Assembly (NCBI GenBank): GCA_900299185.1
Contig: OMIV01000035.1
Location: 1-54,424, forward strand
Source: Planctomycetaceae bacterium
Lineage (GTDB): Bacteria > Planctomycetota > Planctomycetia > Planctomycetales > Planctomycetaceae
Reading direction: 5' to 3'
Length of the DNA: 54,424 nucleotides
Made by a program: the position numbers and the translations under genes
Part shown: positions 3 through 9,580 of the stretch, piece by piece
Layout of the letters: each line of letters begins with the position of its first letter
Numbering within the stretch: position 1 is the first letter of the stretch
The notes under the pieces: generated by a model
What the model was told of the DNA's origin: nothing
What the model saw: only the letters and a program-made list of their open reading frames with translations
The model's database searches: none

Positions 3-491
3 AGGGAGAATCCGACTTGGGGCTACGATCGCATCCAAGGAGCCTTGGCCAACATTGGTTACGACATTGCCGACTCGACTGTCGCCAACGTTCTCAAAGC
101 GCATGGTATTGAACCGGCACCTGACCGGCAGCGAATTTCAGCTTGGTCGACGTTTTTGAAGGCTCACTGGGATTCCATCTTTGCGACAGATTTCACGACG
201 GTCGAAGTGTGGACTCGGAGCGGGCTGGTCACGTTTTATATCCTCGCCGTGATGCACTTGAAGACACGACGCGTGCACATTGCCGGTATCACACCCAGTC
301 CCGATGCCACATGGATCAAGCGGGTCTGCCGCAACCTGATTGACTGCGATGAGGGGTTTCTCAGGGACGCCAGCCATCTGATCGTGGACCGTGATACCAA
401 CTTCATCGCGATGGGTGACTTTCTGGAGCAAAACACCGATACCGAAATCGTGCTGTTGCCCCCCGAGTGCCGTTTCGACCTCGGTTGTTGA
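3..491 (+). pseudogene. Truncated DDE (integrase-core) transposase fragment
   Basis: The reading frame is open from the window edge (position 3), so the 5' part lies outside. The visible protein begins with a helix-turn-helix-like end (ENPTWGYDRIQGAL), followed by the start of an rve/DDE core. The first catalytic Asp is in WDSIFATDFTTVEV and the second in HLIVDRDTNF. The frame then reaches VLLPPE, where family members normally continue into the Ser-Pro-Asn motif and the third acidic residue. Here it runs into unrelated sequence and stops at 491, so the third catalytic residue and the C-terminus are missing. It is therefore an inactive insertion-sequence remnant. The family assignment (IS3/IS481-like integrase core) comes from recognising the motifs. 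No terminal inverted repeat is visible. Confidence 0.8.
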
Positions 492-616: not shown

Positions 617-3600
617 TCAAAACCGCTTCGATCGACGATCAACGTAAAAGGGGGTAGAGCGGAGTTCTTGATCGCAATGAGGACACTTGAAGTTCATCGC
701 AAAATCACTCTCCATTAAATCCTCGTCCCATGCTTCGTCTGGGAGTGATAACACCGGGGAGTCGGCCACACTGATTCCGAACTCGATATGGATTCGATCT
801 ACCGTATCTATCACTTTGGGTGGAAGGCGATCCCGTTTGCCACATCCTCGACAACGATATGTGATTTCTTCGTCAAACGTACCGGGGAGCTGTTTCTCGT
901 TGAGGTAAATCAGACTGTTTGGGGCGGGAGTGGAGCCGTCGATGCTTCCAATTCGAAATAATCGAACCCCAGTAACCCAGGCTTTACGGCTATTTGAATC
1001 GAGGATCTGAAGACCAGTCCTGACACCGTTGGAGTCGCGAACGTAGCCTTCTTTATCAAGCCAAGGATGACCGCTTGGCCATTGGCTGTTGTAATAAGAA
1101 ATTAATCCGCCGTGATCTGTGCCAACACACTTTCGCTCTGCAATTGACCATAAATAAGTTTGATCGTCGGTTTGTTCGGCAAAATATCGCGCATCACGCG
1201 AGAAGACGCACTCCCAACCTCGTATGACCGGATCTGCACCTGGACGCGGCAACGTCCAGTTCGAATCTTGATTGAGTTGAACGATTTGCGGTCGCCCATG
1301 TAGTCCGTCTGAAACCATATATCTTCCATCCGGACTGATGGGTATCCCAGGTGCAACCACTCCTGAAGAGTATCGACGCTTGGGCTCTAGCCAATCTGCA
1401 TGTTTTATACTCCAGAATCTGAGTGTGTTATCGCTGTTGGCGAATATGATTGCGTGTCCATCGCTTGTGAATGCGATCGGATCGCCGCACTCTTCAAGGA
1501 TTGCCTCGTTTCCTTTTGCGAGATTGATCATTGTTAGGGTTTTCGAATTCTTGAAACTCCTAAATACGATGGCGGTGCCGTCAGGGCCAAACAGCACAGG
1601 AAAATCATCACTTCCTTCGTAGAAGTTGAACTCGGGAGTTCGAGACCAGAACGATGATTTCTCGATGACTCTTAAGTGGCTTGGAGTCGTCCCTCGTGGA
1701 TCTTGAGAGATGGCGGACGACGGTACGAACTCCATTCCGAATTTCGCTATCTCCAACGTCTCTAGAAGGGCGGCCACACCTTCGCCGTCGTAGGTGTCGG
1801 TCGACGGCACGAACTCCATTCCTAATTCTGCGAGAGTCAACGCGATCTCGTCATCTCGGTGACTGGGGATTACAGGTAGTAACGGCTGAGAAGCATCAAG
1901 GGGTGGACTTAATTGGGCCGACATTTGTCCGGTCGCGAGATCAACGAGTGAGAAGGTATTTGGTCTTTTCAAGAATCCATAACGCCCATCAGCGCTGATG
2001 CATCTGAGGTCGCCGTTCCCTTTCGGAATTCTACGCAACTCTGTCTTGGACTTCGTTTCAATTACAGAAACGCCATCCGACTGTTGCGTGAATTGATCAA
2101 GAGAGATTGCTTTCAGTTGAATACTGCGGTCGGCTGTTGATTTGGAATCAATAATCTCTAAGGATGAACGCAACGACTCTGCTCGACTCGGCTTCCAGGA
2201 GTCGGAGCTGTCAATAATTGTGTCATTTACGAGATCAATAACGATCCAATAGGCATCTCTCGAATCGCTTGCTCCGCGAATCAATGCAGTCGCTCCGGAG
2301 TGGCATAGTCTTAATAGGTCGGCGGTGAAATCGTCATCACATCCTAGATTGGCAAGTTGTTTCTTGCATACTCTATTAGAACCGATGTCCCAGATGACTA
2401 GAGTGCCTTCCATTACCCCAACGACACGAGCGCCGTCAGGAGTGATCGCTACGTTGGTGTGAAAGCCTGTTGCGAAAATCTCATCGCATTCAGCGTGTCG
2501 TCCATTTGGGCGATTCAGGTCGACTCGCATAAGTGGGTGTGACGAATCGCCATGAGTAGCTTGAAACAACGCCCAAGTACCATCTGGCGAAAGAGCAACT
2601 GGGAAACCGAGTTCACCTGCGTTGACTGTAACTTTTCTCGATGTTTCCAGGTTATAGATTCCACCAAATTCATGAAGGTGGCCCTCGCCTATGAATGCAA
2701 ACCGAGCGTCGGGGGTCATCCAGTACTCATTGATGTCTCCACCGTAGTCCTCTTTTGCACTACGAATAGAGCAAAGGTAGAACGGGGCGACGTCTGGAGA
2801 CTCCGGCAAAATGTGCTGCAAGAGTTGCACGGGGGGCGTCGGCAATTTTGCGGCAGCGTCTGCGATTAGTCCGTGCTTTGCGTAATTGCGAGCAATTTCA
2901 ACTATCGCATCAGGTGCTTCTTGCAGAAGTTGAAACGTTGATCTGACAAACTGCTGGAATTCGTGGATCCGTGAAAAGTTGGTGGGCTTCGCGGGCTTGC
3001 GAGCGGATGGCTTCTTTTGACGTTCTTCCGTTCGGCGCATGTCTTTGATGGTCTGCGTCGTGTCCGGTGGAGGGGGGAAATTGAGCTTCTCGATCTCGGC
3101 AACGGGGTCCTTGCACTCGCCCTGTTCGTGACGGTTGCGAATCTCGGTGCAGCGACGTGAGTACTCGACGATGTCTTGCACGTACTGGTGTAAGGCGGCG
3201 TCTTGCTCGATCCGCTGTTTGAATTCCTTGTCCTGCTGCGGATGTGCTTTGAGGACGGCATCATATTCCGCCAGCAAGTCATGTCCTTGCCCCGCCTCGA
3301 AGCGCGCTTGGATGAATTGTAGGTCAGTCAGAAGTGCCTCAACTTCATTCCATGCTTGGGCATGAACGAAGTGATGGATCACAAATCGAAGCGCGTACGC
3401 TCGCTCGAATTCAGCCGGTGTATCATGAATCCAATCTCTACAACTATTGGCGAGCTTAAGCTCCATTCTTCGAGCGTCGCTCTTCAATTTCAGCGATACG
3501 AAGTCGGCGAAGGTTGCATGAAAAAGACTGAACACTTCGGTTTGTGTTCCATCGAAAAGAGTGATGTCTTCGCGCACATACTCACCGATATTGTCGATGA

Positions 3601-5092
3601 GCTTATCCCAGTCAGAAGTTTCGAATTTCAAGACTGCTTTGATCATCTCGGATGTGAGGGGCTGACGGCAGACTGCGAGTAATGCCAATGTCTGATACAC
3701 ATTTCGAAGCGCTTCGTGGCTCAGCCGTCTAAGACGCTTCCAAGCCCTTTGGAATAACTCTTCATAGAGTTTCGGTGCGTTTTGATCCAAGTTTCGCAGT
3801 TGCTGCAAATAGGTTTCGACTTCCAAGGCTGATGAAGGAAGTTCTTGGCAAATCAACGACAGGACTAAAAAATTGCCATTCCCTATTTCACCAATTGCTC
3901 GCAGTGCGTCGCTGCTCAAGTTTGCTGGTGCAATTGTTCGCACGAAAGCGATCCCATCATTGCGGTGATCGTTGCGAACATCGGGATGCTCAAAATCAAA
4001 GACGTCAATCTGTAAGCATTGAGATGCGTCAAAATGCGTTGGTCGCACTGTGGCGAGAACTCGAACATTGGGCGGGAACTCGCTCCGCAAAAATTCGGCA
4101 ACGGATTCCTTTGAGGGACCAGCTTCGTCGATGGCGTCAATCACAAAGAGGAGTTGCTTTTGTGACGTTATTGCGTTCTCGCTGAGCCGGTGTCGAAACT
4201 CACGTAGCAACGCAGTCTGATCGGCATTCGCCAAGTGAGGTTCTTGATGCTTGAGTTCGTCGGGGCTCAGAAGGGCCGAATAGAATCGACAGATCCAGTC
4301 CCGGGGCTCTCCTTGAGAGTCAACAAAGAAGTGCCAGCAAGCTGCGGTCTCAATCGGCAAGTGCTCATCAAGGAACTGCGCTATGACGCCAGATTTGCCG
4401 CGTCCGGGATCACCTTGAATAACCAATACCCGTTTTTTATCTTGATTTAGAAACTGCTCAATTCTTCGATAGACCCAATCGCGACCAGTGAACTTCTTAG
4501 CTCGAAACGGCGTGATCGATTGCTTCGCTGCCCAGCGTGACAGATCAATTGGAAGCCCCGCTGCTCGTTGTGCGGCTTCGTCGCGTTGACTTCGCAGCTC
4601 AGCCAACTCCTCGCCGCCGCGTTGTGGCTCGGCGAATGCATCACGCGGCCTTTCCCATCCTAGTTTTTGAGCGACCCAAGCAGACAGACCCCAAGCCGTG
4701 TTCAGCAAACGGAGTGTTTCTCTTGCTTCATAAGTTCGATCGTGGGTTGCAGGATCACCTGCGTTTTTGATGTCCTTAAACCATTGAAGCTGCTGGGCCG
4801 GTACATGCCAGGGCTTCTTCGGGTCACTGCACTCACCGATTAGCGTGCTGAATTCGATGGTCCGATGCTGGCCATGATCGCCGCGCGTCTTGACACCTTC
4901 CCGTCCCTTACGCTCGACAAACTCATGTAGGAGGAACTCCGCGTATCGCCTCATGTCAGCGATTGCGTCAGCAGGTGATTCATGGATGTGGCTCTCGATG
5001 ATTGCGCCAAGGTCGCTCAGTCGCTGAGCATTGGCTCGAAGGAACTCAAAGTTGGTTGATCGCATGGGCTGTGTTTTGTGTTCTTGGTTCAT
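617..5092 (-). CDS. STAND/NACHT-type ATPase: DUF4145-like N-terminus, beta-propeller, zinc ribbon
   Basis: This is a very large protein of 1491 residues, or 1482 if translation starts at the second Met (5065). Residues about 12-145 resemble the DUF4145 domain at the N-terminus of type I restriction HsdR (TNFEFLRANAQRLSDLGAI; then FKDIKNAGDPATHD). A P-loop follows, with Walker A GDPGRGKS at 227-234, Walker B LLFVIDAIDEA at 314-324, and a winged-helix end LFHATFADFV near 523-532, typical of signal-transduction (STAND) ATPases. Residues about 760-1400 contain at least eight spaced SPDG-like strands (TPDARFAF, SPDGTWAL, TPDGARVV, SADGRYGF, SPDGRYMV), read as a degenerate WD40-type propeller. The C-terminus has a CxxC pair at 1414/1417 and another at 1470/1473, a probable zinc ribbon. 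STAND proteins of this layout usually sense a ligand, oligomerise and trigger an effector. A defence role is inferred. It lies downstream of a sigma-54 activator. Confidence 0.85.
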   Translation of the reverse strand: MNQEHKTQPMRSTNFEFLRANAQRLSDLGAIIESHIHESPADAIADMRRYAEFLLHEFVERKGREGVKTRGDHGQHRTIEFSTLIGECSDPKKPWHVPAQQLQWFKDIKNAGDPATHDRTYEARETLRLLNTAWGLSAWVAQKLGWERPRDAFAEPQRGGEELAELRSQRDEAAQRAAGLPIDLSRWAAKQSITPFRAKKFTGRDWVYRRIEQFLNQDKKRVLVIQGDPGRGKSGVIAQFLDEHLPIETAACWHFFVDSQGEPRDWICRFYSALLSPDELKHQEPHLANADQTALLREFRHRLSENAITSQKQLLFVIDAIDEAGPSKESVAEFLRSEFPPNVRVLATVRPTHFDASQCLQIDVFDFEHPDVRNDHRNDGIAFVRTIAPANLSSDALRAIGEIGNGNFLVLSLICQELPSSALEVETYLQQLRNLDQNAPKLYEELFQRAWKRLRRLSHEALRNVYQTLALLAVCRQPLTSEMIKAVLKFETSDWDKLIDNIGEYVREDITLFDGTQTEVFSLFHATFADFVSLKLKSDARRMELKLANSCRDWIHDTPAEFERAYALRFVIHHFVHAQAWNEVEALLTDLQFIQARFEAGQGHDLLAEYDAVLKAHPQQDKEFKQRIEQDAALHQYVQDIVEYSRRCTEIRNRHEQGECKDPVAEIEKLNFPPPPDTTQTIKDMRRTEERQKKPSARKPAKPTNFSRIHEFQQFVRSTFQLLQEAPDAIVEIARNYAKHGLIADAAAKLPTPPVQLLQHILPESPDVAPFYLCSIRSAKEDYGGDINEYWMTPDARFAFIGEGHLHEFGGIYNLETSRKVTVNAGELGFPVALSPDGTWALFQATHGDSSHPLMRVDLNRPNGRHAECDEIFATGFHTNVAITPDGARVVGVMEGTLVIWDIGSNRVCKKQLANLGCDDDFTADLLRLCHSGATALIRGASDSRDAYWIVIDLVNDTIIDSSDSWKPSRAESLRSSLEIIDSKSTADRSIQLKAISLDQFTQQSDGVSVIETKSKTELRRIPKGNGDLRCISADGRYGFLKRPNTFSLVDLATGQMSAQLSPPLDASQPLLPVIPSHRDDEIALTLAELGMEFVPSTDTYDGEGVAALLETLEIAKFGMEFVPSSAISQDPRGTTPSHLRVIEKSSFWSRTPEFNFYEGSDDFPVLFGPDGTAIVFRSFKNSKTLTMINLAKGNEAILEECGDPIAFTSDGHAIIFANSDNTLRFWSIKHADWLEPKRRYSSGVVAPGIPISPDGRYMVSDGLHGRPQIVQLNQDSNWTLPRPGADPVIRGWECVFSRDARYFAEQTDDQTYLWSIAERKCVGTDHGGLISYYNSQWPSGHPWLDKEGYVRDSNGVRTGLQILDSNSRKAWVTGVRLFRIGSIDGSTPAPNSLIYLNEKQLPGTFDEEITYRCRGCGKRDRLPPKVIDTVDRIHIEFGISVADSPVLSLPDEAWDEDLMESDFAMNFKCPHCDQELRSTPFYVDRRSKRF

Positions 5093-5105
5093 GCGGCGAC
5101 GCTAG

Positions 5106-5120
5106 GCAAGCACTGTGCCA
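5106..5120 (-). promoter_or_regulatory. Sigma-54 (-24/-12) promoter for the STAND ATPase gene
   Basis: On the minus strand the sequence reads TGGCAC-AGTGC-TTGC. This matches the core of the RpoN consensus (TGGCAC, five bases, TTGC) at every defined position, with exactly ten bases between the GG and GC dinucleotides. It lies in the 52-base gap between the activator gene and the ATPase gene and points at the ATPase. With the C of TTGC at -12, transcription would begin near 5094, only two bases before the first ATG (5092) and 29 bases before the second (5065). Either the message is nearly leaderless or translation starts at 5065. Confidence 0.85.
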
Positions 5121-5144: not shown

Positions 5145-6755
5145 TTACTCGACAGTCGCATTCGAGTCGGGAACTTTGAGGCTGTCTAAACGATGCGTCA
5201 GAGCTTGATAGCTCTTGAGTCCGAGCAGCTTCGCAGCTTTGGTTTTGTTGCCTTTGGCTTGCTGCATCGCGCGACGCAAGATCTCTCGTTGCAGGCTGTT
5301 GAGATGCTCATCGAGGTCGAAGCCGGATTCGAAATCGAGACCGTGCAAGACACTCTGAAAGGACTCTGGCGAGGGCAATTCTCCCAGCGATGCGAGCAAG
5401 TCTTCGCGACTGAGTTCCGTCTGGTCCGCCATCACGGCCGCTTGTACCATGACGTTATAAAGTTGCCGGACATTGCCCGGCCAAGCCTGCTGTTGCACAA
5501 AGACTTTTGCGGTGGCAGAAAGCGTTTTGTGCTCATAGCCCGGTTCCTCCGAGGCGAATTGCCGATTGATGTCCAGCAGCAATCGCTCAGCGATGGCGGG
5601 GATGTCGGTGCGTCGGGCTCGCAGCGGAGGCAAGCGAATGGAAACAGTCCCGAGGCGGTAGAAGAGGTCCTCGCGGAACTTGCCATTCGAAATGCACTCC
5701 AACAAATCGCGATTCGTCGCGGCGATGATGCGGACATCGACCTGATTCTCAACTTCGTCGCCGACACGGCGGATACAGCGGAGGCTGGCGGCAGCTCCTC
5801 TAATGGGCTGTAAGGTACGCAACATCTTGGCTTGAATTTCGAGATCACACTCTCCGACTTCGTCGAGAAACAAGGTGCCGCCATCGGCTTGCTCAAAGGC
5901 TCCAGCTCGGTTGCGGTCGGCTCCGGTGAAGGCTCCTTTTTTGTGGCCAAATAGTTCAGACTCCAGCAAGGCTGCATTGAGTGCAGCGCAATTGACTGCA
6001 ACAAATGGCTTATCGCGACGTGGACTGGCTTGGTGGATCGCACGGGCGAACAACTCTTTGCCCGTACCGCTTTCCCCCAACAGCAACGTTGAAACGTTCC
6101 GTAGGGCAACTCGCCTGGCTCGTCCGACCGCCTCTCGCAGTAAGTGACTCTCGCCAACAATCTGTTCGAAGCCCTCTAACTCTCTGGGACCATGGGCAGC
6201 CAGATGCTGCCAATGTTGATCTGCGGAGCGAAATAACTCCGGAATGACATCAACCGTGAGGTCGAACGGAACGGCAATGACCTTAGAGCGTCCAGCGAAG
6301 GTCTCGAAAAACGTCGCCGGATGGCGCGTCTTCCCGAGTAAGAGCCAAACAGCAGCCATCGCGGGGGTGCCCGGGCTTAAGTGCAAGCAGAGCTGAAAGT
6401 CGAGTGAGCTATGGCGTTGCTTGATTTGATTCAGCACTTGATCGGTGCAGCGATAAATCGCTGCGTAGTCTGTAGGGCTCGGCAGTTCGACTGGCACTAA
6501 CTCGACAGCCTGTTTTATCCACTTGCAAAACCACCGATTGAAGGCTGGCGGGTAATTACTGAGGAGCTTGATCTCGTCGAACGATTCATTGGTAAGCAAA
6601 GTTCTTGTTGGCCCCTCATCTCCAACTAATGCCGCTTCGCCGCCTACATGTTTGAGAACGTGCTGTCTTTCACTCGGTTGAAGGTCGCGAGCCATTGCTC
6701 GTAGATCGCTGTGGCCAATCCATTGGACAAGTATTCGGTTATTTGATGTGTCCAT
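5145..6755 (-). CDS. Sigma-54-dependent activator with CARF-like (RtcR-like) sensor domain
   Basis: The product has 536 residues from ATG 6755; an in-frame extension to 6941 has no family-like content. Residues about 7-175 form an alpha/beta sensor with the motif [10 protein letters not shown] (125-134), like the TGT-type loop of CARF domains, including that of RtcR. An AAA+ sigma-54 activator core follows: Walker A GESGTGKE (227-234), the sigma-54 contact loop GAFTGA intact (274-279), Walker [12 protein letters not shown] (292-302). A Fis-type helix-turn-helix ([14 protein letters not shown]) lies near the C-terminus. Known RtcR is held off by its CARF domain until an RNA-end ligand binds. 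By analogy this protein should respond to a nucleotide or RNA-damage signal, but the ligand is inference. The next gene on the strand has a sigma-54 promoter, so that ATPase is its obvious target. Confidence 0.9.
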
Positions 6756-8418: not shown

Positions 8419-9066
8419 TCACGGAGCCGGCTGTGATTGTTCACATGACTTGTTGACTGGTAGAGAACGGCGCGATTTGCGGTCTTGTCGTGGCATGCCG
8501 ATTAGCTCGGCGAACGGAACATCGGGGTTGAACTCCAGATTGTCCGACGCGTTTGCCTCAGTGGTTTGCTCAGTTGCACCTGCCGACATGATGCAATTCA
8601 CTGTCGGTGTGATGACGTATTCAACATTCGTTTGAATCGCCGTCGCCGGTTTTGATGACGTGCTTGGGTGGTCATTGTCTGGCGTAACGACTGACTGAAG
8701 TTGGCTGAGAGTCGAAATACAATGCCGAGCCTCAGCCATGTACTTGGTCGCAATTCTTGCATGGATTTCAGCCAATTGAGCGGGGATGCCGGCGCTGTTC
8801 ATGATCGCCACCGACGCTTGCCCGTACGCCAACATTGCAAGATCGCTGAGAAGAGCCTTGAGCAACTCCGGATTAGATCGAGCCTCAGTAAATGCACGCA
8901 CATGGTCGGGTAGGCTCAGGATCTTTAACTCCGTTCCCCTGGATGCTGCATATTGGGCAGTGGGCGCAAGACCCTGCAAAACGAATTGTTTTCCGTTGTC
9001 CGGTGGTATGACCGAAGAAGCGGAGGCCTGTGGTGTCTCGGAGACGACGGTTCGGAACTGGCTCAC
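8419..9066 (-). CDS. Hypothetical element protein, start uncertain
   Basis: The open frame runs back to 9381, but its first third lies antisense to a clear recombinase fragment, so the true start must be internal. GTG 9066 is one option and neither it nor later Met codons has a good ribosome site. The credible part is the helical middle (LSLPDHVRAFTEARSNPELL, LLSDLAMLAYGQASVAIMNS, AQLAEIHARIATKYMAEARH), followed by a Thr/Ser/Pro-rich and polar tail ending SQPAP. I do not recognise the family. It ends with a TGA that is directly followed, in frame, by the 141-codon small protein, and both point the same way as the sigma-54/STAND pair. Confidence 0.4.
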   Translation of the reverse strand: MSQFRTVVSETPQASASSVIPPDNGKQFVLQGLAPTAQYAASRGTELKILSLPDHVRAFTEARSNPELLKALLSDLAMLAYGQASVAIMNSAGIPAQLAEIHARIATKYMAEARHCISTLSQLQSVVTPDNDHPSTSSKPATAIQTNVEYVITPTVNCIMSAGATEQTTEANASDNLEFNPDVPFAELIGMPRQDRKSRRSLPVNKSCEQSQPAP

Positions 9067-9580
9067 CAGTTCGAAAATCCAAAGATCGGCAGATGCCGAA
9101 TGTGTTTGCTCTGAAATTGCGGCGACGGAACTCAATCCAATTGTGGTGCGAACAGAGCGCCGGACTTCGCGACTTGGCCAAAGGCAGAAACAGCGTTTGA
9201 CCAAGGAGCGAGTCAGTCGTGTCATCAGCCTGATTGGCAAAGAAGCCGGGGTCATTGTTCGCAAAAGCGATGGCAAATCGGTGGCTCGGGACAAATTTGC
9301 AAGTGCGCACGACCTGCGTCGAGGTTGTGCGATGAGGCTGATGAATTCAGGTGTTTCCGCAGAGACTCTCAAGGTCGTCATGCGGCACGCGGACTTTGCG
9401 ACAACCGAGAAGCACTACGGTGCATTGAGGTCTGCTCAAGCGGCGGCAGACGAAGTCCAACGCAGATTAGCCGCACTGAATCCCTCATTTGTGGGGGGAT
9501 TAGTGGGGGGAAAAGAAGAAACTCCCCAACTGAGTGCTGAGGAGCTTCTGAAGCTAAAGTCTTTGCTGAATTTGCTTTAG
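9008..9580 (+). pseudogene. 3' fragment of a tyrosine recombinase (phage-type integrase)
   Basis: The C-terminal half of the catalytic domain is clear from about 9188: KERVSRVISLIGKEAGV, then SAHDLRRGCAMRLMNSGV with the His-x-x-Arg box, then VVMRHADFATTEKHYG with the second His and the nucleophilic Tyr, and a charged tail ending LLKLKSLLNLL. The first catalytic Arg and the core-binding domain are missing, so the protein cannot recombine on its own. The frame continues upstream into a segment that looks helix-turn-helix-like (ACGVSETTVRNWLTSSKI), which might be real or a chance fusion after deletion; 9008 is the nearest ATG. The stop codon lies 5 bases from the 3' end of a tRNA-Arg gene, the usual position of an integrase gene next to its attachment site. 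Confidence 0.7.

Follow-up and report, generated by a model that had tools for sequence, protein, structure and literature searches.

A start codon at a conserved distance from sigma-54 promoters behind CARF-type activator genes suggests near-leaderless messages for defence effectors

RtcR, the regulator of the rtcBA RNA-repair operon, combines a CARF domain with a sigma-54 AAA+ domain and a Fis HTH; its target adjoins the regulator gene and carries a strict -24/-12 promoter. The same arrangement is found in the planctomycete locus described here, which lies within a stretch of 54,424 nt (the whole analysed stretch is referred to as the window). In the RNA-repair operon, however, rtcR and rtcB are divergent and the ATG of E. 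coli rtcB is located 40 nt after the -12 C, whereas in the window the regulator and its target run in the same direction, and the target is a putative defence effector whose predicted start is near-leaderless. RtcR-type CARF bacterial enhancer-binding proteins (bEBPs) have also been described directly upstream of type I restriction-modification (RM) and CoCoNuT superoperons, with predicted sensing of RNA fragments and sigma-54 activation of defence (PMC11090510). The order of an RtcR-type CARF bEBP followed by type I RM genes is shared with the loci analysed here; the parts of that paper considered for this comparison describe no promoter position, near-leaderless start, in-frame double ATG or HsdR-NTD/STAND fusion.

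Bacterial leaderless mRNAs carry an AUG at or near the 5' end, have no Shine-Dalgarno sequence and use AUG only (review PMC9031893; S. meliloti transcription start site map PMC3616915), features resembling those predicted for the start region studied here. Initiation by 70S ribosomes at 5'-terminal AUGs is supported, and other groups did not reproduce the MazF-based form of the stress model (PMC9031893). For the leaderless mRNAs of B. japonicum the upstream motif is an extended -10 (TGnTA), and no specific promoters were described for such genes (PMC4842269). No family-wide conserved tie of a leaderless start to a sigma-54 promoter came up in the literature searched. To our knowledge, leaderless messages are usually treated as a property of a genome or a stress state, without a dedicated promoter class. 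CARF bEBPs beside type I RM genes and leaderless mRNAs are each known; what appears to be new, as far as the searched literature goes, is the conserved tie between both. By means of a sigma-54 promoter, a regulator-effector family spread over several phyla appears to tie the start codon to the end of its transcript, which makes the CARF-bEBP loci a ready system to test if leaderless translation gates immune effectors. The comparison further yields corrected start codons for many annotated HsdR genes and, for the CARF-bEBPs, a candidate enhancer dyad.

The regulator gene and its neighbour in the window

The regulator gene occupies positions 5145..6755 on the minus strand, with a probable start at the ATG at 6755, and encodes a CARF-AAA+-Fis HTH bEBP of the RtcR_PspF2 class in which the GAFTGA loop is present. 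The best PADLOC model, RtcR_PspF2--CARF_AAA_HTH, matched residues 69-590 of 598 with an E value of 1.8e-159, and matches to Sigma54_activat, AAA_lid_14 and HTH_8 were obtained. The CARF-like sensor domain (6168..6755, minus strand) was used as query for the homologue searches. The protein is not RtcR proper, scoring 307 bits with NCBIfam NF038308 against a curated cut-off of 650, and no neighbouring rtcA or rtcB was found among the ORFs of the first 12 kb of the window.

The codirectional target gene (617..5092, minus strand) encodes a protein of 1491 aa with an HsdR-like N-terminal DUF4145 domain, a NACHT/STAND ATPase, an APAF1_C-like helical part, WD40-like propellers and a Cys-rich C-terminal end. 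Matches to NPHP3_N (1.4e-11), NACHT (1.9e-6) and APAF1_C (8.6e-6) as well as WD40-like matches characterize it as a STAND/NACHT ATPase. The N-terminal domain common with HsdR of type I restriction enzymes covers residues 10-140 (4673..5065, minus strand) and was recovered by BLASTP with E values of 2e-11 and 2e-9 against the HsdR proteins of the homologous loci L080 and L036, and by a match to PRK11448. Like HsdR of the EcoKI type (PRK11448), which carries a DUF4145-type domain beginning MxSxNFEFL, the protein opens with this domain; unlike it, the window protein continues with the NACHT/STAND module and propellers and gave no match to the HSDR_N nuclease or the HsdR SF2 helicase, both of which are present in relatives such as L080. 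The N-terminal domain of a restriction enzyme appears to be reused here on another effector behind the same promoter layout. A search of 297 planctomycete genomes for proteins related to the STAND part returned weak matches, two of which have a readable N-terminus and carry other N-terminal domains. Judged by translations only, transposase-like and integrase-like frames flank the module at 45-491 (+) and 8786-9580 (+), as in a mobile defence island.

The sigma-54 element and two in-frame ATGs

Reading along the minus strand, the stop codon of the bEBP gene (gtcgagTAA, 5145) is followed after 24 nt by the -24/-12 element TGGCACAGTGCTTGC (5120..5106), then by CTAGCGTCGCCGC and an ATG (5092). The original prediction of a sigma-54 core with a 10-base GG-GC spacing was borne out: GG and GC are 10 nt apart between consensus flanks, and the only mismatch to the consensus TGGCACRNNNNTTGCW is the last base, the W after TTGC being absent. 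About 1.1 sites with <=1 mismatch are expected per shuffled 54-kb window, so the motif by itself is no proof of a promoter, and this frequency together with the missing W would suit a chance match without a working promoter. The window site gains its significance from its position 24 nt after the stop of the CARF-bEBP gene and from its conservation at this place in homologous loci. A strong site follows the bEBP stop in nine of the first ten planctomycete loci, and among about 75 related bEBP genes the majority carry a high-scoring site right behind the stop, mostly 0–42 nt after it; the C after TTGC seen in the window recurs in the homologous sites of L018, L031 and L061. Moreover, a sigma-54 activator is the product of the upstream gene, and the genome contains rpoN (full-length match to the RpoN DNA-binding domain). 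We consider a chance match the least probable of all explanations discussed here.

Two ATGs follow the element. ATG1 (5090..5092, minus strand), the presumed near-leaderless start codon, is conserved in position and frame across homologous loci, and ATG2 (5063..5065, minus strand), the putative ancestral HsdR-type start, is located in frame 27 nt downstream. Their distances from the -12 C are 14 and 41 nt, fitting the pattern of the homologues. Taking the C as -12 places the predicted +1 at 5094, two bases ahead of the first ATG as had been proposed; an alternative within the predicted range (5092..5094, minus strand) is the A of ATG1 at 5092, which offers a pyrimidine-purine step. From the spacing a leader of 0–2 nt is predicted for the window message. 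The claim that ATG2 opens the conserved DUF4145 part also holds: the sequence reads MRSTNFEFL, and ATG2 is conserved throughout the bEBP-linked HsdR/DUF4145 loci.

Placement of ATG1 in homologous loci

The phylum search yielded 12 further planctomycete genomes with a relative of the bEBP, and a scan of a genome collection gave 80 loci from Planctomycetota, Pseudomonadota, delta-type bacteria, Myxococcota, Acidobacteriota, Lentisphaerae and others; in viral contigs no CARF relative was found. In many planctomycete loci the bEBP gene is directly followed by hsdR, hsdM and hsdS-type genes, and the effector of L080 was confirmed as HsdR by Pfam. Elsewhere the targets are AAA ATPases, sets of vWA/PP2C/kinase genes on plasmids, or an unknown protein with a DEAD helicase behind it. 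The nearest bEBP relative of the phylum search (L016, 7235-15001, oriented) has as target a 1176-aa protein that matched no Pfam family, with a DEAD helicase next in order; an ATG is located 15 nt after its -12 C.

For the analysis of start codons, loci were picked by the promoter only, and the 38 in which the next gene opens with the HsdR/DUF4145 domain "MxSxNFEFL" were considered. Of the 38 loci, 29 carry an ATG 13–15 nt downstream of the -12 C, 2.0 being expected from flanking positions (p ~1e-29), and 9 of 12 clusters at 60% identity keep ATG1 at this distance (p ~6e-10); these p-values are nominal and overstate independence because the loci are related. All 29 start codons at 13–15 nt are ATG, with no GTG, TTG or CTG, as in leaderless mRNAs. 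ATG1 is in frame with ATG2 in 28 of the 29 loci across gaps of 12, 15, 18, 24, 27, 30, 36 or 39 nt, all multiples of three. The comparison of homologue start sites, a check named with the original prediction, places an in-frame ATG1 at 13–15 nt in 28/38 bEBP-linked loci. The exception is L077 with an ATG1 at 13 nt that is out of frame and runs into a stop after six codons. ATG1 is missing at 12–15 nt in eight bEBP-linked loci. Nine non-duplicate loci were found after the pattern had first been noticed, five of which are also among the 38 (L110, L111, L112, L122 and L125; the others are L142, L143, L145 and L158). They derive from plasmids, gamma, Myxococcota and Desulfuromonadota. ATG1 is present at 13–15 nt in seven of these nine, in frame in each; the exceptions are L125, one of the eight loci mentioned above, with an in-frame ATG at 19 nt, and L111 with none. 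In L077, L035 and L060 the ATG1 frame is short and ends close to the next start (by an ATGA overlap in L035; in L060 it is the decayed beginning of an HsdR gene ahead of an AAA ATPase), which suggests that the following gene is coupled to a leader peptide that is itself leaderless.

ATG1 lies merely 7–70 nt behind the bEBP stop, a proximity that would suit a read-through bEBP-effector message on which ATG1 is reached by coupled reinitiation and does not serve the sigma-54 message. The distance to this stop, however, varies with a standard deviation of 15.5 nt compared to 0.8 nt for the distance to the -12 C, and a Shine-Dalgarno-like core precedes ATG1 in only 3/33 loci, which renders reinitiation highly improbable.

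A further explanation places the constraint at the level of DNA, the ATG near +1 reflecting a start-site preference of sigma-54 RNA polymerase and not a start codon. The base ahead of ATG1 is C or T in 27/29 loci, similar to a pyrimidine-purine initiator, and L077 retains its ATG at 13 nt in spite of the early stop. Such a preference does not account for a frame kept over eight different spacer lengths, nor for an ATG that shifts by 1–2 nt relative to the promoter amid variable flanks. Furthermore, loci of the same bEBP family with other effector types carry ATG1 in only 3/20 cases, and one of these (L033) turned out to be an NFEFL locus in decay whose ATG1 is in frame. Differences in the spacer between ATG1 and ATG2 are spread evenly over the codon positions (79/67/74), compared to a pile-up at third positions after ATG2 (153/108/375). 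No protein-level constraint on the spacer peptide was found, and since the differences are even it is the start and the frame that are kept, not the peptide. This combination is expected if ATG1 starts translation and is hard to obtain from promoter DNA alone. We therefore regard a pure DNA preference as very unlikely. In three loci of the same bEBP family with another HsdR type the ATG is found at 17 nt, and at least two of them have a second start in the same frame.

More weight has to be given to ATG2 as the sole translation start, with a leader of about 29 nt and ATG1 being incidental or mere upstream sequence. The conserved domain opens at ATG2 in every locus, RefSeq annotates ATG2 for the plasmid copy of Pseudomonas luteola, and in Myxococcota a GGAG is located about 9 nt ahead of ATG2. 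HsdR genes without a bEBP also start there: the eight such plasmid homologues, several with WYL regulators and others with none, showed neither ATG1 nor a sigma-54 site. On the other hand, a Shine-Dalgarno-like core precedes ATG2 in only 9/33 loci and is absent from the window and from most gamma and delta loci, and a sole start at ATG2 leaves both the enrichment of ATG1 at 13–15 nt and the 28/29 in-frame rule unexplained. Exclusive use of ATG2 is in our view unlikely. The choice posed originally, between a leaderless start at ATG1 and ATG2 as the true start, stands insofar as both ATGs are conserved in homologues, but not as an either/or: the protein can probably start at either, ATG2 being probably used because it is conserved throughout. 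Among the bEBP-less HsdR genes, those of L132 and L133 adjoin WYL-domain regulators. Nine HsdR loci on viral contigs lacked bEBP and promoter; in viral-contig loci (within L163-L171) the preceding reading frame appears to reach the HsdR start.

A putative signal-gated module and related promoters

Because position and frame of ATG1 are kept far beyond chance, we consider the near-leaderless layout a conserved design, and its recurrence beside related regulators in several phyla suggests that defence genes are deliberately made from leaderless messages. The likeliest reading, which we hold to be probable, is a self-contained signal-gated module in which a CARF sensor-activator switches on the (near-)leaderless mRNA of a defence effector. 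By analogy to RtcR, the CARF domain would sense a ligand linked to infection or RNA damage. Once activated, the bEBP would drive transcription by sigma-54 RNA polymerase from the promoter that follows its own gene after 24 nt, a place that is conserved. Transcription would begin exactly at ATG1 or within about 3 nt of it, which would leave the message leaderless or nearly so, and the ribosome would initiate at the 5'-terminal AUG, in agreement with the conservation of its position, frame and identity. A second start would be available at ATG2, which stays in frame and, mainly in Myxococcota, is preceded by a Shine-Dalgarno sequence. The effector, presumably serving defence, is type I restriction HsdR(MS) in most relatives and in the window a NACHT/STAND ATPase that carries an HsdR N-terminal domain.

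Such a layout may provide insulation: a 5'-terminal AUG that lacks a Shine-Dalgarno sequence would be usable only at the very end of a transcript, so that the harmful effector would not be made from messages reading through from the bEBP gene. This rationale fits the anatomy of the locus, in which the effector gene is located directly behind a constitutively needed bEBP gene. A second possible rationale is that leaderless messages stay translatable when normal initiation is disturbed. In a tentative and on the whole rather doubtful extension, the activator would sense RNA damage and be tied to obligately leaderless sigma-54 messages whose first base is the A of the start codon. The effector would then be made from induced messages only, possibly by ribosomes whose initiation is already impaired by the sensed infection or RNA damage. 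In some species the sigma-54 start could also lie 1–3 nt past ATG1, leaving ATG2 alone.

According to the original prediction sigma-54 mRNAs normally have longer leaders. This agrees with E. coli rtcB and with five strict-consensus sites elsewhere in this genome, where leaders measure about 100 nt or more if any gene follows, but not with many near-leaderless cases in Myxococcota. In 193 genomes of this phylum 50 strict sigma-54 sites have an ATG 13–15 nt on, compared to 34 with an ATG at 41–43 nt and 8 with the reversed pattern. We therefore rejected the notion that near-leaderless sigma-54 sites are unique to the CARF-bEBP family. The CARF-bEBP family, the best conserved case in our data, may thus belong to a broader group of near-leaderless sigma-54 genes. 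Among 30 inspected near-leaderless sites of Myxococcota (L173-L202) many open long frames, several with lipoprotein-like starts.

A search for perfect 7-bp palindromes upstream of the promoter revealed no common upstream activating sequence (UAS). The dyad CAAGA-NN-TCTTG was first noticed at bEBP start regions and was afterwards tested in the enhancer zone. Upstream of bEBP starts it gave 11 matches in 52 loci (<=1 mismatch) compared to 0.1 for permuted motifs, and in the zone 115–200 nt upstream of the promoter 10 matches compared to 1.5 (maximum 5). The window copy CGAGAGATCTTG (5277..5288, minus strand, one mismatch) is located 168 nt upstream of the -24 element within the bEBP gene. We tentatively propose the dyad as candidate operator and UAS of the CARF-bEBP family, the assignment being tentative because the window copy is part of a coding region and the loci are related to each other. 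At bEBP starts the dyad occurs in L022, L060, L065, L070, L090 and others.
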